Position numbers and translations under genes: made by a program
Notes under the pieces: model-generated
What the model was told of the DNA's origin: nothing
The model's input: the letters and a program-made list of their open reading frames with translations, nothing else
Database searches by the model: none
Part shown: positions 7,525 to 56,931 of the stretch, in pieces
How the letters are laid out: the number at the start of each line of letters is the position of its first letter
Numbering within the stretch: position 1 is the first letter of the stretch
Assembly: GCA_025464095.1 (NCBI GenBank)
Contig: JAODMF010000020.1
Coordinates: 124,001-188,000 of the forward strand
Origin: Glaciihabitans sp.
GTDB taxonomy: Bacteria; Actinomycetota; Actinomycetes; Actinomycetales; Microbacteriaceae
Direction of reading: 5' to 3'
Length of the DNA: 64,000 bases

Positions 7525-7602
7525 CCCCATTGCGGAGGACGACACGCCGCGTGAGCGCCGCGAAACGGCGTGCGCGCGGCGTGTCATCCTCCGCGGTGGG
7601 GG
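7525..7602. repeat. Dispersed palindromic element, copy A
   Basis: An imperfect inverted repeat with 27-base arms, 7525-7551 and 7576-7602, and a GC-rich loop. The left arm begins CCCCATTGCGGAGGACGACA. The same arms occur at 49784-49862 and 54614-54688. This copy ends three bases before the stop of the NlpC/P60 gene read from the other strand, so it can form a hairpin at the 3' end of that mRNA, like a terminator or a REP element. Confidence 0.8.
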
Positions 7603-7605
7603 TGG

Positions 7606-8406
7606 TCAGATGCCGAAACGCACTATGTAGAAGTTGGTTGTGTAGATCGCGTGGTTGCCGACGGTTCGTCCGGGCATGGGCGCGTCGATCATCCGGTTGC
7701 CACCCAGGTAGATGCCGACGTGGCTGCCACCGTCGATGACGACAACGTCGCCGGGACGCGCGGCCGATAGTGCGATCCTCGTGCCCGCCGCGCCCTGCGC
7801 CGACCCGGAGTGCGGCAGCGAGATGCCGAACTGCGCGTACACGTAGGCGACGAGCCCGGAGCAGTCGAACCCCGAGGGGCTCTCGCCTCCGAACACGTAG
7901 GGCGTTCCGGTGTAGCGCTCGGCAACGGAGACGACTTTCGCCAGGCTGAAGTGCGGCTGCGGCGGGTGCGCCAGAAGCGCGCCCAGGTTCGGGCCGGCGG
8001 CGAGTGCTGCGACCCGAACGGCCGCCCGCTTGCGCTGCAGGGCGGCGACGCTGGTGGCACCAATCGTGTCCCGCGACGCCGAGGGCACCGCGGCCGCGGT
8101 GAGCGCGACATCCATCGTGACCGTCTGCGATTTTGCCGCGAGGGTCTGCTCACGCTGCGCCGACGTCGACGCGGATGCGGTGGCCTGGCCGGTCGACGCG
8201 GCCCCGCTGGTCGCGGCGTACGCCGGCAGCGCCACCGTGGCGAACAGGCTCGGAACCACCAGGGCGGTGACCGCGAGGCTGAGGATGCCCGATCTGCGAG
8301 CCGCGCGGCGCGGCGCGCGAAAGACAGACTCCGCGGGAAGGCCCTGCGAGTCAGAAGGCTGGACCTGCTCGACGCTGCGAGGCGTTGGTCGTGAAAGGGA
8401 AGTCAT
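7606..8406 (-). CDS. Secreted NlpC/P60 peptidoglycan endopeptidase
   Basis: This 266-residue protein has a long N-terminal region with a hydrophobic export signal (SLAVTALVVPSLFATVALPAYAA), an Ala/Thr-rich linker, and a C-terminal NlpC/P60 domain. The domain has catalytic Cys in FDCSGLVAYVY, His in GGSHVGIYLG, and the third polar residue in the NHAIYTT segment. These enzymes cut stem peptides of peptidoglycan in cell growth and separation. It is a close paralogue of the gene just upstream: the catalytic domains align along their length. The 132-base gap between them holds a perfect hairpin, so the two may be separate transcripts. Confidence 0.9.
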   Translation of the reverse strand: MTSLSRPTPRSVEQVQPSDSQGLPAESVFRAPRRAARRSGILSLAVTALVVPSLFATVALPAYAATSGAASTGQATASASTSAQREQTLAAKSQTVTMDVALTAAAVPSASRDTIGATSVAALQRKRAAVRVAALAAGPNLGALLAHPPQPHFSLAKVVSVAERYTGTPYVFGGESPSGFDCSGLVAYVYAQFGISLPHSGSAQGAAGTRIALSAARPGDVVVIDGGSHVGIYLGGNRMIDAPMPGRTVGNHAIYTTNFYIVRFGI

Positions 8407-8538: not shown

Positions 8539-9192
8539 CTACTTCCTAAAACGAACGAGGTAGTAATTGTTCGTGTAGATCTTGTGGTTGCCCACCGTGC
8601 GACCCGGCATGGGTGCGTCGAACATGCGACCGTGTCCCATGTAGATACCCACGTGCGAGCCACCGTCGATCACGACGACATCGCCGGCGTGAGCCTGCGA
8701 GCGCGCGACGCGGTAGCCCTTGCGGCCCTGCGCGACACCGGAGTGCGGCAGGCGAATACCGACATGGCGGTACACGTACGCCACGAAGCCGGAGCAGTCG
8801 AAGCCGTGGGGGCTCTCGCCGCCGTAGCGGTAAGCGACTCCGTGGTAGCGCTTCGCGAACTTCACGACGCGCTTGTGAAGGTTCGGCTTCTTCTTGTGGT
8901 GCTTCACCGCGGTCGTCGCCGGAGCGACGGCGGTCGTTGTGACCGCCAGCTGCGCTACCGAGACCGACTGCGAGGTCGACGCCGGTGTTGCCGCCGTCGC
9001 CGGAGCCGCGGTTGCGAGGAGTCCCGGGATCACCAGTGCGGTAACCGCCAGACTCAGGATGCTGGCCCTGCGGCCAGGTGAGGTTCGCTTCGTGAACGCC
9101 GAATCCGGGTTCGAACTGTTGTGAGCGAGTGAACTATCAGTGTTCGTTTGTTCGCAAACTGGTTGCGATTTCGTTGTTCCTATTTTTGTCAA
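8539..9192 (-). CDS. Secreted NlpC/P60 peptidoglycan endopeptidase (paralogue)
   Basis: This 217-residue protein has an export signal (SLAVTALVIPGLLATAAPATAA), a short Thr/Ala linker with a basic KHHKKKPNLHKR patch, and an NlpC/P60 domain with Cys in FDCSGFVAYVYRH and His in GGSHVGIYMG. The start is taken as TTG 9192, with AGGAG nine bases upstream. That TTG begins TTGACA, which could also act as a -35 element, so a later start cannot be excluded. The basic linker may bind anionic wall polymers. Tandem duplication with the gene at 7606 is clear from the shared SPxGFDCSG, PHSG and DAPMPGRTVGNH blocks. Confidence 0.88.
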   Translation of the reverse strand: MTKIGTTKSQPVCEQTNTDSSLAHNSSNPDSAFTKRTSPGRRASILSLAVTALVIPGLLATAAPATAATPASTSQSVSVAQLAVTTTAVAPATTAVKHHKKKPNLHKRVVKFAKRYHGVAYRYGGESPHGFDCSGFVAYVYRHVGIRLPHSGVAQGRKGYRVARSQAHAGDVVVIDGGSHVGIYMGHGRMFDAPMPGRTVGNHKIYTNNYYLVRFRK

Positions 9193-26807: not shown

Positions 26808-26881
26808 GCCTCCATAGCTCAGTTGGCCAGAGCACCGCTCTTGTAAAGCGGGGGTCGTCGGTTCGAATCCGACTGGGGGCT
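26808..26881 (+). tRNA. tRNA-Thr(UGU)
   Basis: A cloverleaf with acceptor GCCTCCA / TGGGGGC, D arm GCTC...GAGC, anticodon loop CTTGTAA with anticodon TGT, and T arm GTCGG TTCGAAT CCGAC. CCA is not encoded. Bases 26840 onward recur exactly at 31533, so this gene is the integration target of the island to its right, and its function is kept by the element's copy. Confidence 0.95.
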
Positions 26882-26882
26882 C
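26840..26882 (+). repeat. attL of the tRNA-Thr island
   Basis: The left 43-bp att copy, starting in the anticodon loop and ending one base past the tRNA. It also encodes the last codons of the integrase on the minus strand. Confidence 0.93.
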
Positions 26883-26951
26883 CCTAGGAATCCCAGATCA
26901 GCTGCTTGTTTCGCTGCTCTTGATGCTACGGCGCGAACGCTATCGCGCCGC

Positions 26952-26971
26952 TTTGCCCGCAATTTGCCCAC
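26952..26971. repeat. Paired TTTGCCC motif inside the integrase gene
   Basis: TTTGCCCGC and TTTGCCCAC, 11 bp apart, lie 71 bp beyond the 3' end of tRNA-Thr. The mirror pair near tRNA-Arg (6459-6478) has identical spacing and distance. It could be a recombination accessory site shared by related integrases, or conserved integrase coding sequence (VGKLRAK). Confidence 0.45.
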
Positions 26972-28104
26972 ACTCAGAGGTGCCGCAGTGGCATTCAAAG
27001 CGACCGCAACGCTGTCCAGGTCTTCGTCGAAGGGGTCGCTGTAGGTGTCGAGAGTTTCCTTTGCGGAGCTGTGCCCGAGCATCCGCTGTAGGGCTTTGAC
27101 GTTCGCGCCGGCCGATACCGCAAGGCTCGCGCACGTGTGTCGAAGCTCGTGCGGAGTCAGCCCGGGGATGCCGATGGTCGCTGCAGCATCGTCGAACCAC
27201 CCGCGGCGGAACGTGCGATTGCGCAGGACCGCGCCGGACTTGGAGCTCACGAAGACATGGTCGGTGGGCTTCTTGCCTTCAATGTGGATGGAGAGCTGCT
27301 CGAGGATGAACTCCGGAACGGGAATCGACCGCTCCTCGTAGTCCTTCGTCGTCGACTCCTGCAGGTAGCCATTCACTTCGACCATCGTGCTGTGCACGTC
27401 AAGACGACCTCGAACGAGATCAACGTCACGTACGCGAAGCCCGGAGAGTTCACCCCACCGCAGCCCGGTGTAGGCGAGCACGAGAACAAGAAGGCCGAAA
27501 CCTTCTCCCGCGGGCTTGGCATCGATGGCTTCTGCAAGCGCAACGACTTGTTCGTGCGGGAGGAACTTCTTGCGAGTCTTGATCTGCTTGGGCAGCTTCA
27601 GCCGCGCTGCTGGGTTGGCCGGAAGTCGTCCATCGTCGACTGCCAGCTGGAGTACCGCGGATAGGACATTGACGATCTTGCGCACCGAGCCAGGGCTCTG
27701 CGTTGCCCTCAGCTTGGACGCCCACTGCTGCGCCTGCAGCCTCGAGAAGTCAGCGAGGGCGGGGTGTCCGACCGTCGGGATGATGTGGATGCGCACGACG
27801 CCCTTAACTCGATCGAGCGTCGATGCTCGCAGGTCGAATCGGCTCTCGACCCATGACGTCATCCACTGGGCGATAGTGACTCGCGCGCGGCTCGGGTCGA
27901 TGTATCGGCCAGTGTTCTTCGCCACTTCGACTGAGGTCCGGAAGTGTTCTGCGTTCGCTTAGTTCTGAACCTACGCTTGTCAGCCTGGCTGTGGTCGGGC
28001 TTGCGATAGCGCACGCGGTACCGTCGTCCGCCCATCGTTTCGTACGGAGTGACGCTACCCACGTGGTTTTCCGATCGATCTCATGACGTCAGTACAACTC
28101 TCAC

Positions 28105-29262
28105 CTATGACACTGTTCCGTCGTTTGTCCAATCACTCGGCGCGACGTTCGCATATGGCCACAGGCCAATTTTGCTGAACATGGCGACGAAAATGACGTG
28201 CATCGACTCCGCCGGATTGGGCGGGGCCCCTCCTCCCCCAATGGTGGACATTCCATTTGTCCCGTCAAAGATGGCGCCCTCAGGAACCTCCCATGCGCCT
28301 GCGAGCCGCGCGGCGAAATTCTTCCAGTCCCAGGTGCCCGCGAAATCTCCGGGGTCGGGAGTCATGATCGTGGCGAAACCGTTCCCGCCGCTAATCAGAT
28401 GATCTTGATTGCTCCAAGATGTCTCTGACATATAGGCAAGCCGCGCGTATACCTCCCGAAACTGTGTGGGGTGGAGAGGGAACGACTTCGCTGTGTCGAT
28501 CTGCGGCTGACGAACCCCTTCCGATCGCCCCCAATCTTGCAATATGGCAACCACGCCGATCTTGCCTATTCGAATTCCGATTATTGGAAGCATCAAGTCG
28601 TCAAGGTAGTCGAACCTGAACTCCGGCTCGTCTGAATCAAGGCACTCGAAGAAATGGAACGAAGCTGGGCCGGGTGATTTATGCTCCCATTGAACGACGC
28701 CCGCCGCCGCTTGGAGTAAAAAGTGGTGGAATTGAATGCTTTCGAGATGAGCCACTGGAACGAGCCGAGCTCCAGCCTGATCCGATACCGAGAGTGGCTG
28801 CAGCGATTCCTTATAGACGAGACCGTAGTAAATCTTCCCCAACCAAAGGAATAGATCCAGCCGATCGAGATTGGCGAACGCGTCGATACCGTCGCGATAT
28901 GCGCTCCGCACGCGAGATTCAATACCGCTCAGGTCCACTCCATTGCAAGTTAGGCAGCAAGGAACCGTCAGACGGCGATAATGCAGCGCTCTGCCGTTGA
29001 TTTGGTTGACGGATGAATCCCACATGTTCAGCTCATGGAGGAGCCATTTCGGAAAGACATGTTCAATTGTTCTCTGCGAGTTGCCCACCGGGATATGGGC
29101 ACCACACAGGAAGCAGCAGTCGTCGCCGAATCTCTGCACACGATCAATCAGGAACTGCTCGTGCGGGCTGCGGGGCTCCAACTCTGTAGACACCCGCTCA
29201 TTCTGTTCCACTCTCAGCTCGCGCGGCGGCTTGTGAGGCTTTTGCAGCGAGAGTCGCTCCAT
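28105..29262 (-). CDS. HNH-type putative nuclease (island cargo)
   Basis: A protein of about 385 residues with an N-terminal HNH/zinc-finger module: CFLCG (Cys51, Cys54), RTIEHVFPKWLL (Glu68-His69 as the likely metal and general-base pair), and a second knuckle CCLTCN (Cys104, Cys107). The remaining 280 residues are a domain I do not recognise, with LFLWLGKIYYGLVYK and FHHFLLQAAAGVV. The layout of a single large protein, a nuclease-like head and an island location resembles solitary anti-phage proteins, but that role is inference. ATG 29262 or GTG 29265 are equal start candidates. Confidence 0.75.
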   Translation of the reverse strand: MERLSLQKPHKPPRELRVEQNERVSTELEPRSPHEQFLIDRVQRFGDDCCFLCGAHIPVGNSQRTIEHVFPKWLLHELNMWDSSVNQINGRALHYRRLTVPCCLTCNGVDLSGIESRVRSAYRDGIDAFANLDRLDLFLWLGKIYYGLVYKESLQPLSVSDQAGARLVPVAHLESIQFHHFLLQAAAGVVQWEHKSPGPASFHFFECLDSDEPEFRFDYLDDLMLPIIGIRIGKIGVVAILQDWGRSEGVRQPQIDTAKSFPLHPTQFREVYARLAYMSETSWSNQDHLISGGNGFATIMTPDPGDFAGTWDWKNFAARLAGAWEVPEGAIFDGTNGMSTIGGGGAPPNPAESMHVIFVAMFSKIGLWPYANVAPSDWTNDGTVS

Positions 29263-29383
29263 CACGACGCGAGCTCATCGATTGAAGCGTATTTCGCTCT
29301 GGCGTTTGCTGCACGGCCTGAGGGTGATTCCGACCGAATCCATTGCGCTCGAGCTTCCCAATCGCCACTAGCTGAACTCGCGA

Positions 29384-29944
29384 TCATCGATTCAGAATTT
29401 GATGGGGTGTCGTCCCAATAGTCGGGATCGGGAGCCCGTACTTCTTGTGCTGCTCCCGGTAGTAGGACGTTTGCAATACCTCGGCCCGTTTAGCGTCAGC
29501 GGGAGTCCATGGCACAAGGTCGACGGCCTGGCAGCGTCGTGTTGCGTTCGGGAAGACGCCCGCGACTCCATCGGCGAGCTTGCAGGCCATCAGATCAGAC
29601 CGGCTCTTATCGCGCCAGGTCTGCTCCGGATCCGAAGGCTTGGCTCGGTAGCTGTAGTTGTCGAGGCAGAAGCCGATCGGATCCCTCATATCGAAGCCCA
29701 CGCCGGTAGATGTTTGGCCAGAGTTTGGATCGTCTGTACCAAAACAGATCATGTAGGGGCCCTGTTTGGCGCCGGGCCAGACGAGTGCCGCCGCGACCGT
29801 TGAGCTAGTGACGAGAAGAGCTGCGGCTCCCGCGATCGCGACAATTTTGTAGCGCCTTCGCGCGATGCTGCGGTGGACGCCATGCTCGATGCGTCGAAGA
29901 GCATCGTCGATGTATTCCGCGTCTAGGTCAACATATGTCTTCAT
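29384..29944 (-). CDS. Single-TM protein downstream of ECF sigma factor
   Basis: This 186-residue protein has a cytosolic head (DLDAEYIDDALRRIEHGVHRSIARRR), one TM helix (about 33-54, VAIAGAAALLVTSSTVAAALVW) and an extracytoplasmic part with conserved-looking Cys residues (YMICFGTD, FCLDNYSYR, MACKLADG, RRCQAVD). It starts nine bases after the sigma-factor stop. The position and topology fit an anti-sigma or sigma-linked signalling protein, but no zinc anti-sigma motif is visible. Confidence 0.65.
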   Translation of the reverse strand: MKTYVDLDAEYIDDALRRIEHGVHRSIARRRYKIVAIAGAAALLVTSSTVAAALVWPGAKQGPYMICFGTDDPNSGQTSTGVGFDMRDPIGFCLDNYSYRAKPSDPEQTWRDKSRSDLMACKLADGVAGVFPNATRRCQAVDLVPWTPADAKRAEVLQTSYYREQHKKYGLPIPTIGTTPHQILNR

Positions 29945-29953
29945 CAGGGGTCC

Positions 29954-30496
29954 TTAGTCAGATTCAGATCGAATAGTTTTGAGGCGACGCCTAGCGCGCT
30001 CTACGCGCTTCGCGACGGCAGCGGTACTCACCTTCAGTTGTGCGGCGGCCTCCCGATACGAAACTCCGTCGATTAAGCAGAGTTTGCAGATCGCCTGATC
30101 GAGCGGAGTCATGGTGGCGATCTCGGCCAGAACCCACTCCAGTTCCTCGCCTGCCTCGTTTACGGCGCGGGAAGTGAAATCCGGGTGGGCAGCGAGATCC
30201 GCCGCCTCGTGTTTCCGAGAGCGGCGATACAAATTGGCGCCGTGGTTCCGGCAGGTAACCAATAGCCAAGGCAGGACAGTGTCGCCTTCGATGTCGAGAA
30301 ATCTGCGCTTCTTCCAAAGCGTCATAAAAGTCTCTTGCACCAACTCCTCGGCATCGCTCCTGTCGCCAGCGAGACGCCATGCGTATCGGAGCACCGTGGC
30401 CCCATACCGGCTGAGGATCGCATCGAAGTCGGCACGCGACTTGAAGCGCTCTGCGGCGTCCGCTGCGGTATCAGCCTCTGGTTTGGTGTTCGTCAT
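29954..30496 (-). CDS. ECF-type RNA polymerase sigma factor (island)
   Basis: This 180-residue sigma factor has region 2 (FDAILSRYGATVLRYAWRLAGDRSDAEELVQETFMTLWKKRR) and region 4 (LIDGVSYREAAAQLKVSTAAVAKRVERARRRLK). It would direct RNA polymerase to a small regulon, perhaps only this island. A strong GGAGGTGA ribosome site precedes the ATG. It is followed by a single-TM protein, the usual place for an anti-sigma factor. Upstream, 30497-30740 has no gene and ends at the stop of the DUF7674-like gene. Confidence 0.88.
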   Translation of the reverse strand: MTNTKPEADTAADAAERFKSRADFDAILSRYGATVLRYAWRLAGDRSDAEELVQETFMTLWKKRRFLDIEGDTVLPWLLVTCRNHGANLYRRSRKHEAADLAAHPDFTSRAVNEAGEELEWVLAEIATMTPLDQAICKLCLIDGVSYREAAAQLKVSTAAVAKRVERARRRLKTIRSESD

Positions 30497-30740
30497 GGGA
30501 TTTCACCTCCTGCTTATGAGGTGTCTCCATGCGCTGGATCATGACATGTGATGCTCCAGTTGACTACAGGGCGCCCGTACGCAAAAGCCGTGTCCGGGAA
30601 TTTTGGCCCGCGCCACGTGGAACTCTGTGATGCACAACACACCCTTGACGGTTCTGTATCAATAGCGGTCTGACACTTCGAGGTCGTCTAGTCCTGGCAA
30701 TTGTGGGTCGACGTTCCGGGATGAACCATGTGCGCACTGC

Positions 30741-31148
30741 TTATTCTTGTTTTGGCGGCCGCCAATTGAGCTGGCGGTCCCGCTCGTCCAAGAGGGGCTT
30801 GGGCCAGCTGGCGATAAATTCCGGCGTCTCTTCCGCGAACGCGCCGACATGCTCGACGAACGAAACTGCGATGGCATTGTTCACGTATCCATCGCACTTC
30901 TCGAAGACTGCGCTCACGAGTGCGAGCACCCTTGCGGCCGTCACTCGATCTCCCGAACCGAATGCTGCGGTGGAAAAGCGCAGAACGTCAGGAAGCAGCA
31001 GATGCAGGAGTAATTCTCCGTCGTAGTCAGCTAGATGCTCGTCGACCACTGGCCCGATCTCGGGCACAGCGGCAAGAAGGCGTTCGACGAAGTTGGATGC
31101 GGTCACCTGAGATTCGATCACGCGTCCAGTATCCCGAGTGGTTGTCAT
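30741..31148 (-). CDS. DUF7674-like hypothetical protein
   Basis: A 135-residue acidic helical protein (ASNFVERLLAAVPEIGPVVDEHL, DGELLLHLLLPDVLRF, AIAVSFVEHVGAF, ETPEFIASWPKPL). It looks like the DUF7674 family of small cytosolic proteins, some linked to toxin immunity; the function is unknown. ATG 31148 is preferred to 31181 because the first eleven residues of the longer form are low-complexity. It is the outermost cargo gene near attR. Confidence 0.6.
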   Translation of the reverse strand: MTTTRDTGRVIESQVTASNFVERLLAAVPEIGPVVDEHLADYDGELLLHLLLPDVLRFSTAAFGSGDRVTAARVLALVSAVFEKCDGYVNNAIAVSFVEHVGAFAEETPEFIASWPKPLLDERDRQLNWRPPKQE

Positions 31149-31345
31149 CCCTGACGCCCATGGCCCGGTGGTTGAGCCCATCTATCGACGCGGGACCCGC
31201 TTCCAAGTCAGCGGAGCCCAGTCCGGCAACCTCGTCTAGGCCGACACCTCGCTACTCGTCCTGGACGACCAACGACCGCGCACATAGAGCACCCGTGGCG
31301 AACGCTGGGCCTAAATCGGCACAGACGACCATGCAAAACCCAAAG

Positions 31346-31384
31346 GTGTCACCGATGTCCCGAGGCAAAAGTGTCACCGATGTC
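31346..31384. repeat. GTGTCACCGATGTC pair, possible IS481-type relic
   Basis: Two exact 14-bp copies (31346-31359 and 31371-31384), 25 bp apart. This sequence is reminiscent of the ends of IS481-like insertion sequences in actinobacteria. No transposase remains. The surrounding 31149-31532 holds no convincing gene. Confidence 0.35.
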
Positions 31385-31532
31385 GGACAGATCACAGCAC
31401 GTGGAATCTCGTCTCGTTTTCCGGTGCCCACATTTTGCCCACAACCGAGGAACATCCAGCGCATACGGAAGTGACGCAAATGTCGTCAAATGCCTGTATT
31501 TGTGCGGAAGTTGGGCACCATCAACCGTCGCG

Positions 31533-31575
31533 CTTGTAAAGCGGGGGTCGTCGGTTCGAATCCGACTGGGGGCTC
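31533..31575 (+). repeat. attR of the tRNA-Thr island
   Basis: The right 43-bp att copy, identical to 26840-26882. It contains the tRNA-Thr anticodon-loop-to-3' sequence without the 5' half, so it is not a functional tRNA. Confidence 0.93.
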
Positions 31576-36773: not shown

Positions 36774-36797
36774 ATGGCCGATGGTGGTCTCGGCCAT
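36774..36797. promoter_or_regulatory. Inverted repeat upstream of sugar-ABC ATPase
   Basis: ATGGCCGA, eight bases, then TCGGCCAT, a perfect 8-bp inverted repeat. GTGACATAAT just before it looks like the -10 region of the promoter, so the repeat would overlap the transcription start, a normal place for a repressor operator. The protein is not identified. Confidence 0.45.
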
Positions 36798-36853
36798 CAT
36801 CCATTCACTCGGATCGTCCGGCACGTACCTGCCGGTGAAGGAGAAATTCAATA

Positions 36854-48165: not shown

Positions 48166-48909
48166 CTACTTCTTGCCCTGGTTGGCGACCGCGGCCGCAC
48201 CGGCGGCGGCAGCCTCGGGGTCGAGGTACACGCCCGGCGCGGTCGGGCGAAAGTCGTCGTCGAGCTCGTAGACCAGCGGGATGCCGGTGGGGATGTTCAA
48301 CTCGGCGATGTCCTCGTCGCTGATGTTGTCGAGGTGCTTCACCAGCGCGCGCAGGCTGTTGCCGTGCGCGGTGACCAGGACGGTCTTGCCCGCGGCGAGA
48401 TCCTTGGTGATGTCGGACTCCCAGTAGGGCAGCATCCGGTCGATCACCAGCTTCAGCGACTCGGTGCGCGGAATCTCGCCGTCGATGCCCACGTAACGCT
48501 CATCGTCGACCTGGCTGTACTCAGCATCGTCGTCGAGCGGGGGCGGGGGCACGTCGAAGCTGCGGCGCCACACCTGGAACTTCTCGGCGCCGTACTCCTC
48601 GAGGGTTTGCGCCTTGTCCTTGCCCTGCAGCGCGCCGTAGTGGCGCTCGTTGAGGCGCCAGCTGCGCTTGACCGGAATCCACAGGCGGTCGGCGACCTCG
48701 AGAGCGAGGTTCGCGGTCTGGATCGCACGCGTGAGCACGCTCGTGTAGAGGATTTCCGGCGTGAGCCCGGATCCCGCGAGCAGTTCGCCGGCGCGCCTGG
48801 CCTCGGTGACTCCCTGGTCGCTGAGGCGGACATCCACCCAACCGGTGAAGAGGTTTTTCTGGTTCCAGTCGGAGTTGCCGTGCCGCAGCAGGATCAGCGT
48901 CGAAGTCAT
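48166..48909 (-). CDS. gpmA: 2,3-bisphosphoglycerate-dependent phosphoglycerate mutase
   Basis: A 247-residue mutase of the histidine-phosphatase fold. The phospho-His is in [19 protein letters not shown], with the substrate residues [22 protein letters not shown] and the second His in [21 protein letters not shown]. It interconverts 3- and 2-phosphoglycerate in glycolysis. Confidence 0.97.
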
Positions 48910-49006
48910 GGCTTCAGCTTATCGACGCTGCCCACGGGCTAATTCCTGCCATTCGTGCCGCGGCGCTGGTGACGAATTGCGTTACGCAAGAGGCGAGAAT
49001 GGACGC

Positions 49007-49780
49007 ATGGCGGAGGGGCGGGTCACGCGCGGCACGACGGGCACGAACCGGCTGCGCCGCGTCGACCGCTGGATTGCGACCCTGCCGGCGCTGCGTCGGG
49101 CGGCGGATCCGCTCGTCGTCGACCTGGGCTACGGCGCGAGCGCGACGACACCGCTCGAACTGCACGCCCGGCTCGCGCGGGTGCGGCCGGATGTCGAGGT
49201 CATCGGGATCGAGATCGACCCTGACCGCGTGCGGCTGGCCGCGCTCTCCGCCCGGCCCGGGGTGAGCTTCCGGCTGGGCGGGTTCGAGGTACCGCTGCCC
49301 CGCGAACGCCTGGCAACGGTCATCCGGGCGTTCAATGTGCTGCGGCAGTACGACGAGTCGGAGGTGCCCGCCGCCTGGGACCGGATGCTCGCCCGGCTGC
49401 AGCCCGGCGGCGTGCTGGTCGAGGGCACCTGCAATGAGGTCGGAAGGGTCTGCAGCTGGGTCGATCTCACCGCCGAGGGGCCGCAGTCGCTCACGCTCAG
49501 CCTGCGGCTGGCGGAGCTAGAGAAGCCCTCGATCGTGGCCGAGCGACTGCCGAAGGCGCTCATCCATCGCAATGTGCCGGGCGAGCGCATCCATTCGTTC
49601 CTGAACGATCTCGACCGGCTGTGGAGCTACAACGCGGCGCTGTCGGTCTACGGCGCGTCCCAGCGCTGGATCGCTGCGGTCGAGGGGATGCGGAACGCCG
49701 GCTGGCCGGTGCGCGGAACGAGGGCGCGCTGGAGGCTGGGCGAGCTCACCATCGACTGGCAGGCCGTCGCGCCCCTCTAG
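49007..49780 (+). CDS. Class I SAM-dependent methyltransferase-like protein
   Basis: A 257-residue protein with a Rossmann-type SAM site: motif I LVVDLGYGASATTPLEL, the acidic end of strand 2 in VIGIEIDPDRV, and VIRAFNVLRQYDESEVPAAW. The substrate is unknown. GAGAAT ends six bases before the ATG (leaderless pattern). The gene ends three bases before palindromic element copy B. Confidence 0.8.
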   Translation: MAEGRVTRGTTGTNRLRRVDRWIATLPALRRAADPLVVDLGYGASATTPLELHARLARVRPDVEVIGIEIDPDRVRLAALSARPGVSFRLGGFEVPLPRERLATVIRAFNVLRQYDESEVPAAWDRMLARLQPGGVLVEGTCNEVGRVCSWVDLTAEGPQSLTLSLRLAELEKPSIVAERLPKALIHRNVPGERIHSFLNDLDRLWSYNAALSVYGASQRWIAAVEGMRNAGWPVRGTRARWRLGELTIDWQAVAPL

Positions 49781-49783
49781 CCG

Positions 49784-49862
49784 CCCCCATTGCGGAGGAC
49801 GACACGCCGCGTGGGGAGCCGCGCGCGCCCCCGTTGCGGCGTGTCATCCTCCGCAATGGGGG
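49784..49862. repeat. Dispersed palindromic element, copy B
   Basis: Arms 49784-49810 and 49836-49862 (27 bases each, one mismatch) with a GC-rich loop. It is the best-preserved of the three copies (see 7525-7602 and 54614-54688). It fills nearly the whole gap between two convergent genes, so it may act as a two-way terminator. Confidence 0.85.
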
Positions 49863-49864
49863 TT

Positions 49865-50986
49865 TTAGCCGGAGAGGACGGGCAGCAGCGCGCGCGCCTG
49901 GTCCTCGTCGCGACCGGCCGCGACGAGCAGGTCCACGACGAGGGGCCGCACGAGAAGCACGAGAACCGAGTCGGTGACGGCGGCGTCCGGGATCAACTCC
50001 GCGGGATCGAGCGTCGTCGCAATGTCGGCCAGGTCGCGCGCTGCCGCGGCAGCGGCATCAGGTCGGTCGATGCTCTCGCCGAGCAGCACGACGTCCTGGT
50101 TGACGCGGGCGAGGAGGTTCGCAATCTCAGGTCGTGAGCGGCCGTCCCTGACCAGGAAGGATGCCCGGCGCGCGATCACCCTCAGGTGACGAGCCGCGAG
50201 GTCCATGCCGGCGAGCACCCGCGCCTGGTGGCGCAGTTCGGCCAGGTGGCGGCGCAGAAACGGGGAGATACGCGCGATCGCGATCGCCGACTCCAGCGAC
50301 GACGACCAGTCGTCGACGAGCGACTGCGTGCGACGCAGCCGCGTGATCGAGAGGGATGCGGCACCCTCATCGCCGTCGCGCAGCCCGGTGACCAGGGTGC
50401 CGAGCGATTCGGTCAGCGTCGAGAGCAGCCTGCGCGCGTCGCGTCCCGCGATCCGCCGAGGATCGCGCGGAACCAGCGCGGTCACGGCGAGCGCGATCAC
50501 CCCGCCCACCGCCGCGTCGATGCTTCGGTTGAAGACGCCACCGGGCGCGGTCGGCAACACCAGCACGAGCATTGACTGCACCCCGGCCGCGATCGCGAAC
50601 GCGTTGCTCGAGGTCACCAGCCGGGCGACCACCAGCGTCACGAGCAGGGTGAGCGCCATCTGCCACAGGCCGCGACCGATTCCGAGCAACAGCACCTCGC
50701 TGAGCGCGACACCGACGAGGATGCCGACGGCCGACTCCAGCACGCGGCGCGGCCGGGCATCCCGCGCGAATCCGAGCGACGAGATGACGACCGTGATCGC
50801 CAGCAGCGGGCTGGTGTGTCCGAGCGCATAGAACGCGATCGAGTAGCTGGCGATGACGCCGACCACGATCTGCAGGATCGCCGGCAGCGAGGCGGCCGTG
50901 CGGTCGAGGGCGAGCTGAACGCCCAGCCGGCGACGGATGCGCCGTTCAAAGCGCGCGAGGGAACGAGCTGACGCCGTCGGCGCCAT
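49865..50986 (-). CDS. FUSC-family membrane protein
   Basis: This 373-residue protein has about six TM helices in the first half (GHTSPLLAITVVISSLGFARD, VLESAVGILVGVALSEVLLLG, LLVTLVVARLV, AAVGGVIALAVTALVPRD) and a helical cytosolic second half. This is the aromatic-acid-exporter/FUSC layout. The transported substrate is unknown. It begins two bases after the ygfZ stop on the same strand. Confidence 0.82.
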   Translation of the reverse strand: MAPTASARSLARFERRIRRRLGVQLALDRTAASLPAILQIVVGVIASYSIAFYALGHTSPLLAITVVISSLGFARDARPRRVLESAVGILVGVALSEVLLLGIGRGLWQMALTLLVTLVVARLVTSSNAFAIAAGVQSMLVLVLPTAPGGVFNRSIDAAVGGVIALAVTALVPRDPRRIAGRDARRLLSTLTESLGTLVTGLRDGDEGAASLSITRLRRTQSLVDDWSSSLESAIAIARISPFLRRHLAELRHQARVLAGMDLAARHLRVIARRASFLVRDGRSRPEIANLLARVNQDVVLLGESIDRPDAAAAAARDLADIATTLDPAELIPDAAVTDSVLVLLVRPLVVDLLVAAGRDEDQARALLPVLSG

Positions 50987-53099: not shown

Positions 53100-53789
53100 G
53101 TGGCGCAGCTGTTGATACTGACCTCTGCGGTCGACACCGAGGTCCTACCCGCCCTGGGGCTTCTCAGCCATAAGGTCCGGCAGATCCCGGCATCGCCCGC
53201 GTCGCTGATCAGCGCCCCGACTTCCGATCTGATCATCGTGGATGCGCGCCAGGATCTGGCCAGCGCAAAGTCCCTCTGCAAGATCCTGAACACGACGGGG
53301 CTCAACGTTCCGCTGGTACTCGTTCTCACCGAGGGCGGACTCACCGCCGTCAGCGCGGACTGGGGAGTGGACGACGTCATCCTCGAATCGGCCGGTCCAG
53401 CCGAGGTGGATGCGCGCGTCCGGCTCGTCATCGGCCGCATGATCGCCGATAAGTCGAGCTCGAAGATCCAGGCCTCCGGCGTCGTGATCGACGAGGCGAG
53501 CTACTCGGCGAAGGTGCATGGACGCCCACTCGACCTCACCTTCAAGGAGTTCGAGCTGCTGCGGTTCTTCGCAACGCACCCGTCGCGCGTGTTCACCCGC
53601 GAACAGCTGCTCAGCGAGGTGTGGGGCTACGACTACTTCGGCGGCACGCGCACCGTTGACGTGCACGTGCGTCGCCTGCGCGCCAAGCTCGGCGACCTCG
53701 AGTCGCTCATCGGAACCGTTCGCAACGTCGGGTACCGCTTCAACGTCTACGAAGACGACAATGAGCGACTCAGCCCAGTCGGATCCTGA
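53100..53789 (+). CDS. glnR: GlnR-type nitrogen response regulator
   Basis: This 229-residue protein has an atypical receiver ([63 protein letters not shown]) and an OmpR-type winged helix ([43 protein letters not shown]). It matches the orphan GlnR family that activates nitrogen genes without a partner kinase; none is adjacent. GTG 53100 has GGAGG six bases upstream. It overlaps mshD by 29 bases. Confidence 0.85.
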
Positions 53790-54630
53790 CTGGCTGTTCG
53801 CCCTCGCGGATCGCGCCCGCGGCGCGGACGGCAGTCCCCCATTCTCGGATGGCGCCCTGGTCGAGTACCGACAGGGAGCCCGCTCCCTTGTCTCTATCGG
53901 CGAGGTGGCCGCGGCGCTGGTTCGGCCTGGCACCGATGACGCGGAGGCGGAATTCGTCGTCGACCCGGATGCCCGCGGCCGCGGCAACGGAACGGCACTT
54001 CTCGAGACCCTGCTGTCGACCTCGCCTGGTGGGCTGCGCATCTGGGCTCACGGGGACCACCCCGCCGCCCGTGCCCTCGCCGCCAGCCACGGGCTGGTGG
54101 CGGTCCGAACCCTCCTGCACCTCGCGGCCAACCTCCGTGAGCGACCGTCCTCGCAACCGTCCTCGGGATCGCAACCGACTTCGACCGCGGCGCCCGTCGA
54201 GCAGCGATCCTTCAGCGTCGGGCAGGACGAGCGAGCCTGGCTCGACGTCAACGCGCGCACCTTCGCGTCCCACGAGGAGCAGGGCCGGGTCACTCTCGCC
54301 GACCTGCAGGTGCTCGAGAGCGAGCCGTGGTTTCGGGCAGACGACTTTTTGCTGCTGGAGCGGGACGGCATCCTGTTCGGCTTCTGCTGGCTGAAGATCG
54401 AGGGTCAGCTGGGCGAGTTTTACGTGGTCGGCGTCGATCCCGACCATCAGGGCGAGGGGCTCGGCCGCACGCTCGTGGAGGCCGGCGTTGCGCGCCTGCT
54501 CGAGCGGGGCATCCATTCGGCGCACCTCTACGTTGAGGGCGACAACGAGGCCGCGCTGCGGCTCTACCGCTCGTTCGGCTTCACCGAAGCGTCGGTCGAC
54601 ATCCAGTACCAAACCCATTCCGGAGGATGA
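53761..54630 (+). CDS. mshD: Mycothiol synthase
   Basis: A 289-residue protein with two GNAT domains. The active C-terminal one holds the acetyl-CoA loop [18 protein letters not shown] and the end [22 protein letters not shown]. It acetylates Cys-GlcN-Ins to give mycothiol, the actinobacterial thiol buffer. The linker ([17 protein letters not shown]) is Ser-rich. The last four codons and the stop lie inside palindromic element copy C, so the repeat has written the C-terminal HSGG. Confidence 0.9.
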
Positions 54631-54688
54631 CACGCCGCGCCGGAGCCCCACGAACGCGACAGCGCGGCGTGTCGTCCTCCGCAATGGG
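54614..54688. repeat. Dispersed palindromic element, copy C
   Basis: Arms 54614-54640 and 54662-54688 (27 bases, two mismatches), the same family as 7525-7602 and 49784-49862. It overlaps the 3' end of mshD and precedes ppk by 62 bases. Confidence 0.82.
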
Positions 54689-54750
54689 GGAATGCCCAGA
54701 GTTAACGTGCGCGAACCACGCCGCTCGGCCACGGGTGCCAGTATTGGGGG

Positions 54751-56931
54751 ATGGAATCCGAGGCGTACCAGACCGATGCGGCCGTCGGCGCGGATTACCT
54801 CGACGACTACGAGGATGAATCCACCTCCGTCGACGACGGCTCCCTCCCCGCCGACCGCTACCTCGATCGCGAACTGAGCTGGCTCGCGTTCAACCAGCGC
54901 GTGCTCGAGCTCGCCGAAGACCCGAACGTGCCGCTGCTGGAGCGCGCAAACTTTCTCGCGATCTTCTCCACGAACCTCGATGAGTTCTTCATGGTGCGCG
55001 TCGCCGGGCTCAAGCGCCGCATCGCGACCGGCCTCGCCGTGCCCACGAACCTCGGCCGCACCCCCCTGCAGGCACTCGCCGACATCAGCGCGGCCGCGCA
55101 CGAGCTGCAGAACCGGCACGCGCGCGTCTTCCACGAGCAGGTCAAACCGGCGATGGATGACGCGGGCATCCACATCGAGTCCTGGTCCGACCTCGAAGAG
55201 AGCGACCGCGTTCGCGTCGACGAGATCTTCTCGGCCCAGATCTTCCCGGTGCTGATGCCGCTTGCGGTCGACCCCGCGCATCCGTTCCCCTACATCTCGG
55301 GACTCTCGCTCAACCTCTCCATCCGCGTGCGCAGCCCGAAGACGAACCGCGTCGAGTTCGCCCGCGTCAAGGTTCCCAGCGTGCTGCCGCGTTTCGTGCA
55401 GCTTCCGGATGACGACAGCGGTCGCCTGCGCTTCATCCCCCTCGAAGACCTCATCTCCAATCACATGGAAGACCTGTTCCCCGGGATGCAGATCCTCGAG
55501 CACCACGAGTTCCGCGTCACACGCAACGAAGACGTGGAGATCGAAGAGGACGAGTCGGAGAACCTGATCCAGGCGCTCGAGAAGGAGCTGCTGAAGCGAC
55601 GGTTCGGCCCGCCCATCCGGCTCGAAATCACGGACGACATGGATGACGTCACCCTCAGCCTGCTCATGCAGGAGCTCGACATCACCGCGCAGGAGGTGTA
55701 CCGCCTGCCCGCCCCCCTCGACCTGGGCGGCCTGTTCGAGGTCACCCGCATCGACCGGCCGCTGCTGAAGTATCCGAAGAGCCTGCCGACGACCAGCGCG
55801 AACCTGCTGCCGACGGAGGCGACCGAGGTGCCCGACATCTTTGCGTCGATCACGCGGCGCGACATCCTGCTGCATCATCCGTACGAGTCGTTTGCCACCA
55901 GCGTGCAGGCGTTCCTCGAGCAGGCCGCCGCCGACCCGAACGTACTCGCGATCAAGCAGACGCTATATCGCACCAGCGGCGACAGCCCGATCGTGGAGGC
56001 GCTCATCGATGCGGCGCAGTCCGGAAAGGCCGTGCTGGCACTGGTCGAGATCAAGGCGCGCTTCGACGAGACGGCGAACATCAGCTGGGCGCGCAAGCTC
56101 GAGAAGGCGGGCGTGCACGTCGTCTACGGCCTCGTCGGCCTGAAGACGCACTGCAAGCTGGCGCTGGTCGTACGCCAGGAGAAGAACGGCGCGCTCAAGC
56201 ACTACAGCCACATCGGCACCGGCAACTACAACCCGAAGACGAGCCGCATCTACGAGGATCTCGGCCTGCTCACCGACAGCGACACGGTCGGCAAAGACCT
56301 CACCCGCCTGTTCAACGAGCTCTCGGGCTATGCCATCGAGAAGAAGTTCAAGCGGCTGCTCGTCGCCCCCCTCCACCTGCGCAAGGGCCTGCTCAAGCGC
56401 ATCGCCACCGAGGCGGAAAACGCTCGGGACGGCCTGCCGTCGGGCATCCGGATCAAGGTGAACTCCATCGTGGATGAGGCGATCATCGACGCGCTGTACC
56501 GTGCCAGTAACGCGGGTGTTCCGGTCGACATCGTGGTGAGGGGAATCTGCTCGCTGCGGCCGGAACGGGAGGGCATCAGCGAGAACATCCGGGTACGTTC
56601 CCTCCTCGGCCGCTACCTCGAGCACTCCCGCATCTTCTCCTTCGTCAATGGCGGCGACCGCCAGGTCTACATCGGCAGCGCGGACATGATGCACCGCAAC
56701 CTTGACCGCAGGGTCGAGGCGCTCGTGCGGCTCAACGACCCGGATCACCTCGCGGAGATCGACGACCTCTTCGACCTGTCGATGTCCGACGAGACCTCCT
56801 CGTGGTGGCTCGACGAGTCCGGCGCCTGGATCCGCCATGCCGTGGATGAGAATGGCGTTCCGCTTCAGGACCTGCAGAACGTGCTGATGGCGCAGATCCA
56901 GCAACGCCGCCGTTCGGGGCCGATTCGATGA
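54751..56931 (+). CDS. ppk: Polyphosphate kinase 1
   Basis: A 726-residue PPK1 that reversibly moves the ATP gamma-phosphate to polyphosphate. Catalytic His is in [18 protein letters not shown], and PLD-like active-site residues are in [14 protein letters not shown] and [18 protein letters not shown]. The acidic N-terminal 40 residues are extra. It lies next to the phosphate genes and may draw on PstSCAB uptake. A 14-bp tandem duplication covers its stop. Confidence 0.96.

Follow-up and report, generated by a model that had tools for sequence, protein, structure and literature searches.

REP-like repeats are tied to one enzyme class, the Y1 transposases, and why hosts keep such repeats is, to our knowledge, still an open question. 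Rickettsia palindromic elements (RPE) are likewise palindromic and occur as in-frame insertions in protein genes, at loops that tolerate them, and MITEs and the terminal repeats of transposons are further short, non-autonomous inverted-repeat sequences. The DUF559/MTES_1575 proteins are very abundant in actinobacteria, and we know of no explanation for their role. RAYT genes are inherited vertically, and REPINs are more numerous in genomes that have a RAYT (PMC8049555). The MTES_1575_REase domain has been described as having a Vsr fold (PMC3710099), and the homing endonuclease I-Bth0305I binds, as a dimer, to a target nearly 60 bp long (PMC3943268).

For the elements described here, three of which lie in a window of 64,000 nucleotides of bacterial DNA, REPIN-RAYT is the closest described system; its defining enzyme was looked for in five genomes and not found, and its hairpin constraint is absent. 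As in REPIN-RAYT, short paired palindromes are dispersed through the genome, a single-copy and vertically inherited enzyme gene is bracketed by its own copies, copy number is higher where the enzyme is present, sequences are lineage-specific, and there are BIME-like composites. Unlike in REPIN-RAYT, the enzyme is a predicted AbiEi-winged-helix/Vsr-like nuclease and not Y1, the half-sites are independent (a duplex dyad and not a hairpin), solo arms are absent from the genome that contains the window, the span is fixed at 57–60 bp, and some copies lie inside proteins. The predicted C-terminal fold of the nuclease matches the EDxHD/Vsr-like enzyme I-Bth0305I, whose target length also matches the span of the element; unlike I-Bth0305I, the nuclease is encoded by a chromosomal gene that sits between rimM and trmD, outside any intron or phage, is tied to many dispersed palindromes, and has an N-terminal AbiEi-like domain. 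Compared by family features only, our elements are like RPE in being palindromes that insert in frame and keep the frame, and unlike RPE in sequence, in host, in being mostly intergenic and in having an identified nuclease partner. They differ from MITEs in that the gene they flank stays at a single site and encodes no known transposase.

A dispersed palindrome family of fixed span

The window (positions 124001–188000 of contig C23) belongs to a Microbacteriaceae draft genome, G000, with 2.50 Mb in 29 contigs and 83% completeness. The original prediction placed three palindromes in it, and all three are where it had put them (Table 1), with arms that are 86–100% complementary and centres that are mutually unrelated. 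Copy 1 is separated by 4 bp from the stop codon of an NlpC/P60 gene, copy 2 fits exactly into the space that separates the stop codons of a convergent gene pair, and the left arm of copy 3 provides the TGA stop codon (54628–54630) of the GNAT acetyltransferase gene upstream of it.

Table 1. Coordinates of the three window elements, their adjoining genes, and the nuclease gene of the same genome.
Feature	Position	Strand	Details
Element copy 1	7525–7602	.	Core 7534–7592: arms 7534–7549 and 7577–7592, 27-nt centre 7550–7576
Element copy 1, outer arms			Reach to 7525 and 7602
Element copy 2	49784–49862	.	Core 49794–49852: arms 49794–49809 and 49837–49852, centre 49810–49836
Element copy 3	54614–54690	.	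Core 54622–54680: arms 54622–54637 and 54665–54680, centre 54638–54664
NlpC/P60 protein gene	7606–8406	-	3′ end adjoins copy 1
Methyltransferase-like ORF	48761–49780	+	Stop 4 bp ahead of copy 2; start codon uncertain
FUSC-like membrane protein gene	49865–50986	-	Stop 3 bp past copy 2
GNAT acetyltransferase (mshD-like) ORF	53518–54630	+	Terminates inside copy 3; true start internal to ORF
Polyphosphate kinase gene	54751–56931	+	Downstream of copy 3
Nuclease gene	G000 C3:56324–57202	Opposite to rimM/trmD	Between rimM and trmD

The window has several other features. The NlpC/P60 gene beside copy 1 is in tandem with a related gene for an NlpC/P60-type secreted protein at 8539–9192 (71% DNA identity over 300 bases; Pfam match on the first of the two). 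In the region 26808–31575, 47 nt of the 3′ part of a tRNA-Thr (TGT) are duplicated, with 98% identity, at 31529–31575. The 4.7-kb segment between the tRNA and this duplicate, which carries a tyrosine integrase gene (26819–27925, minus strand) and a sigma-factor-like ORF, is a predicted integrated element with attachment repeats. An msiK cis-regulatory RNA is present at 36792–36849 (Rfam RF01747, 61.7 bits); Rfam has no family at the positions of the palindromes.

By matching a one-arm pattern genome-wide we counted 19 two-arm copies in G000, so the three in the window are not the only ones, and a reversed-pattern control gave none. Solo arms are absent from G000, as each of the 27 exact matches to a single arm falls within one of the 19 two-arm elements. 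The distance between arm starts is 43 bp in every copy, the core spans 59 bp (a 16-bp arm, a 27-nt centre and a second 16-bp arm), and about 10 more matching bases extend beyond each core arm, for full arms of about 28 bp. The variable loop of the original prediction is variable in sequence, the centres of separate copies being unrelated, but its length is fixed.

A scan of 85k species genomes, in which spans of 50–70 were permitted, returned 47 stretches. With the exception of two single off-type hits of planctomycete type, which look like chance, they come from Microbacteriaceae or near relatives–for example, Salinibacterium, Homoserinibacter, Leifsonia SCN 70-46 and Micrococcales 72-143–and span 57–60. 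G292, a member of genus g79, has 25 copies. A looser search with single arms, permitting 2 mismatches, returned only noise across 59 relatives. Two close pairs of elements, at L088:5230–5418 and L128:1492–1786 (spacings of 112 and 219 bp), have centres that are similar in part and are probably local tandem duplications.

Siting, copying and half-site structure

The siting of 18 copies in G000 could be called: 9 are between convergent genes, 6 between co-directional genes and 3 between divergent genes. Convergent junctions are over-represented compared to the background of the window (9/18 vs 11/60 junctions; binomial P = 0.002), and most of the copies in convergent gaps abut stop codons. The siting at gene 3′ ends that had been proposed from the window holds in part; in relatives, some copies lie within coding sequences. 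The convergent sites, together with the strong inverted repeats, are what would be seen if the elements were bidirectional terminators that convergent genes share and that gene conversion has spread, and a family-specific terminator was one of the readings first offered. We found that 0 of 186 ends have a U-tract beyond the element (at least 5 T within 10 nt). Since there is no U-tract, and copies are also present at divergent junctions and within proteins, the elements are not a terminator family as such; moreover, variation between the arms is not compensatory, and terminators do not need a fixed arm spacing of 43 bp. We consider this explanation very unlikely.

The copies within ORFs of relatives are in frame. 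They are found in an HrpA-like helicase and (twice) in a DEAD-box helicase in G292, and in an alpha-mannosidase in G080, and they are always translated R-E-D-D-T/A-P ... G-V-S-S-S-R. HrpA is the one site at which we compared the insertion with empty sites in relatives. Only one of nine congeners (G292) has it; the entire insert of ~26 residues is missing in the others, which have a short acidic loop instead, and in two congeners the loops are longer and unrelated-looking. Because the ~26-aa segment is wholly missing in relatives, the entire element must have been inserted, and the idea that the centre is captured target DNA is ruled out at HrpA. By eye, no target-site duplication is seen in the flanks of the G000 copies, and intergenic copies are without close empty sites. 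In G292 the rimM gene (L168:3270–3905) terminates within an element, so that its product gains a new C-terminal extension (..DSVREDDAPTEA).

Six dispersed copies in G162 are near-identical across both arms and centre, several of them being part of a composite with a second element. This near-identity indicates that copying takes in the whole element or composite, and that centres diverge later while half-sites are kept, which is why copies of some age, those of the window among them, share only their half-sites. Elements of this family have dispersed, are copied whole, and have inserted in frame in particular lineages. The proposal of a dispersed family that is mobile or under selection is supported by the 19 copies, the lineage-specific insertion and the recent amplification in a relative. 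The composites of G162 (C1:972800–974100 and C4:433950–435100; loci L244 and L246) are BIME-like: a conserved linker of ~12 bp connects a 57-type element with a 59-type one, and the composites are repeated in the genome.

Where arm positions are variable, left and right arms differ independently of each other within each genome, with the observed number of Watson-Crick pairs equal to expectation at every position (for example, 38 observed vs 42.2 expected at arm position 11). The arms of a second family, in the g98 species described below, are likewise independent, save at position 4, which divides two subfamilies. Covariation of the outer arms, seen when all copies are taken together, is gone within genomes and reflects genus-specific arm sequences. 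Because the arms vary independently, the hairpin is not what selection keeps, and each half-site holds its own consensus, like the site of a dimeric protein in duplex DNA. The element is best read as a dyad-symmetric double-stranded DNA site with two conserved half-sites at fixed spacing, 57–60 bp long.

We also considered whether the centre folds as a sub-hairpin, and rejected this as it has no more structure than shuffled sequence (mean z = -0.12). The centres are not quite random either, as they have a weak positional composition. Their A/T pattern has peaks ~11 bp apart (P < 1/2000), as expected for a bent duplex, and the best reading is that the centre would count by its length and A/T phasing, and not by its sequence.

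The original prediction compared the palindromes with REP/BIME elements, and thus with REP or REPIN sequences mobilised by a Y1 (RAYT) transposase. Dispersed paired palindromes with a variable middle have this appearance, and the composite arrays of G162 resemble BIMEs. The Y1 transposase that this reading calls for (Y1_Tnp, PF01797) is absent from all five element-bearing genomes searched, and was detected in E. coli as a positive control. Solo arms and hairpin covariation are absent too, and the gene that the elements flank encodes a different nuclease. Mobilisation by Y1 is therefore already largely refuted, and we find it scarcely credible. Judged from sequence, the family is neither a REP/RAYT element nor an intrinsic terminator.

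A nuclease gene bracketed by the elements

By comparing the flanks of the elements we found that one locus has two copies in many lineages, one on either side of a gene that lies between rimM and trmD in the opposite orientation. Two copies bracket this gene in eight lineages, which include G000, G292, G305, ACE_ACT13, FW300, S. metalliresistens and Leifsonia SCN 70-46; in G292 it no longer adjoins trmD, with other genes in between. The gene is single-copy, vertically placed between the two housekeeping genes, and codes for a protein of ~290 residues. The protein matches DUF559, REase_MTES_1575 (just below the cut-off) and, at its N-terminus, AbiEi_4 (sub-threshold), and residues E183, D210, E220, D222, H227 and D236 are invariant in an alignment of 34 sequences. 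Foldseek searches with an AF2 model, itself weak (mean pLDDT 67) and giving modest E-values, hit the AbiEi antitoxin 6y8q, the catalytic domain of I-Bth0305I (3r3p; prob 1.0, TM 0.72 on target), NGO0050 and Vsr. The protein is best read as a predicted nuclease with an AbiEi-like winged-helix N-terminus and a C-terminus of the Vsr/EDxHD type.

We searched 400 Microbacteriaceae genomes with a profile of the nuclease. The highest scores were in G305 (469 bits), G000 (437), G292 (405) and G391 (362), and the rest scored 291 or less. G305, G000 and G292 have 9, 19 and 25 strict copies of the element, respectively; their top rank is partly circular because the seven-sequence model contains them, and G391 is the only independent case. 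All genomes with 9 or more strict copies possess the nuclease, and the congeners of G292 that have no ortholog contain 0–3 strict copies, or a few more if weaker matches are counted. G391, which is outside the model and has 0 strict copies, served as a blind test. Its nuclease ortholog, between trmD and rimM, is flanked by variant palindromes of equal span (GTTGCGGAGGAG...) that number 19 copies genome-wide; among seven other species of the genus, six are without this variant and one has three.

A similar association exists at more distant nucleases. In a set of 26 such loci (52 gene sides), a strong inverted repeat was sought within 330 bp and found at 52% of the 52 sides, compared to 0/104 distal segments and 0.6% of shuffled flanks. 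The left and right palindromes of one nuclease were alike in 14 of 24 cases, above the 95th percentile of mismatched pairs, and palindrome sequences differ between genera. A clear palindrome is absent at about half of the sides in this set, and at most order-level homologs. Each of eight g98 species carries 6–16 copies of the palindrome GGGMGGAGA...TCTCCKCCC, with spans of 57–59 nt throughout; G342 has 4 dispersed copies of another type, and G037, from a different family, has a near-perfect 72-bp palindrome in 3 copies, two of them bracketing the nuclease. Elements and nucleases are associated, then, and have diversified together. At the nuclease gene flanks of loci L185, L198, L184, L195, L196 and L194, the palindrome sequence differs from one nuclease clade to the next (for example, AATTCAGGCTCAGCTGCGACACGCC, CAAACGTCGCGGCAACC and GTGCCAAATGAAGGAAC).

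Conflict systems repeatedly contain AbiEi-like and Vsr-like (restriction-type) domains (PMC3710099), which is consistent with a selfish or defence cassette whose nuclease attacks DNA that either lacks or has the element, the elements protecting or addicting the host. We regard this as highly improbable, given a single-copy gene with a vertical position between two housekeeping genes and a locus in which no partner methylase or toxin gene was recognised; it would also leave the dispersal of the elements unexplained.

A candidate enzyme-site pair

We think that the element is probably the cognate dyad binding site, and the dependent repeat, of a domesticated homing-type nuclease. A nuclease homodimer would recognise the dyad by means of its winged-helix and nuclease domains, much as I-Bth0305I binds its ~60-bp target as a dimer. 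Cutting by the nuclease, followed by host repair, would copy the element at a low rate to tolerant sites, namely gaps between convergent genes and disordered protein loops. Binding (or a benefit to the host) would maintain selection on the half-sites while the centres drift, and where the nuclease is absent the elements would remain few. Such a scheme would work like REPIN-RAYT, with a non-homologous enzyme and a duplex, not a hairpin, as substrate. We infer the binding, the cutting, the copying reaction and any host benefit; it is the 57–60-bp dyad that suggests cleavage of a long target by a dimer.

A nuclease that only binds and regulates, moving nothing, fits most of the data, and the main rival is a purely regulatory or architectural role, with no mobilisation. 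The elements would then be fixed sites–operators, or sites that organise the nucleoid or chromosome–for a winged-helix nuclease that regulates its own gene and others, and they would be maintained by function. The half-sites are conserved independently, like protein-binding half-sites, two copies bracket the nuclease gene and some are in divergent promoter regions, the length and A/T phasing of the centre suggest a wrapped duplex, and the AbiEi-like N-terminus is a domain of the antitoxin/repressor type. However, half of the copies are between convergent stop codons and some are in frame in protein loops, which are poor places for operators, and a fixed site accounts badly for the recent dispersed amplification in G162 and for catalytic residues that are invariant across 34 homologs. 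We therefore see a role without mobilisation as rather unlikely.

There is a wider proposition, on which we are evenly balanced: that a large actinobacterial family of chromosomal AbiEi/Vsr-like nucleases, each keeping and multiplying its own fast-evolving palindromic duplex target, may be an independent, non-homologous counterpart of REPIN-RAYT, consisting of homing endonucleases domesticated as repeat keepers. In the open-access literature we found no publication that connects palindromic repeats with DUF559/MTES_1575 proteins, so the novelty is provisional. If the proposition is true, the arrangement of an enzyme gene between two copies of a dispersed repeat, itself sparse where the enzyme is lacking, would have evolved more than once, with an unrelated nuclease and another type of substrate. 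The element and its nuclease would be a small, testable enzyme-site pair that offers a role for DUF559/MTES_1575 proteins, and in-frame insertion of the element would be a source of new protein segments.
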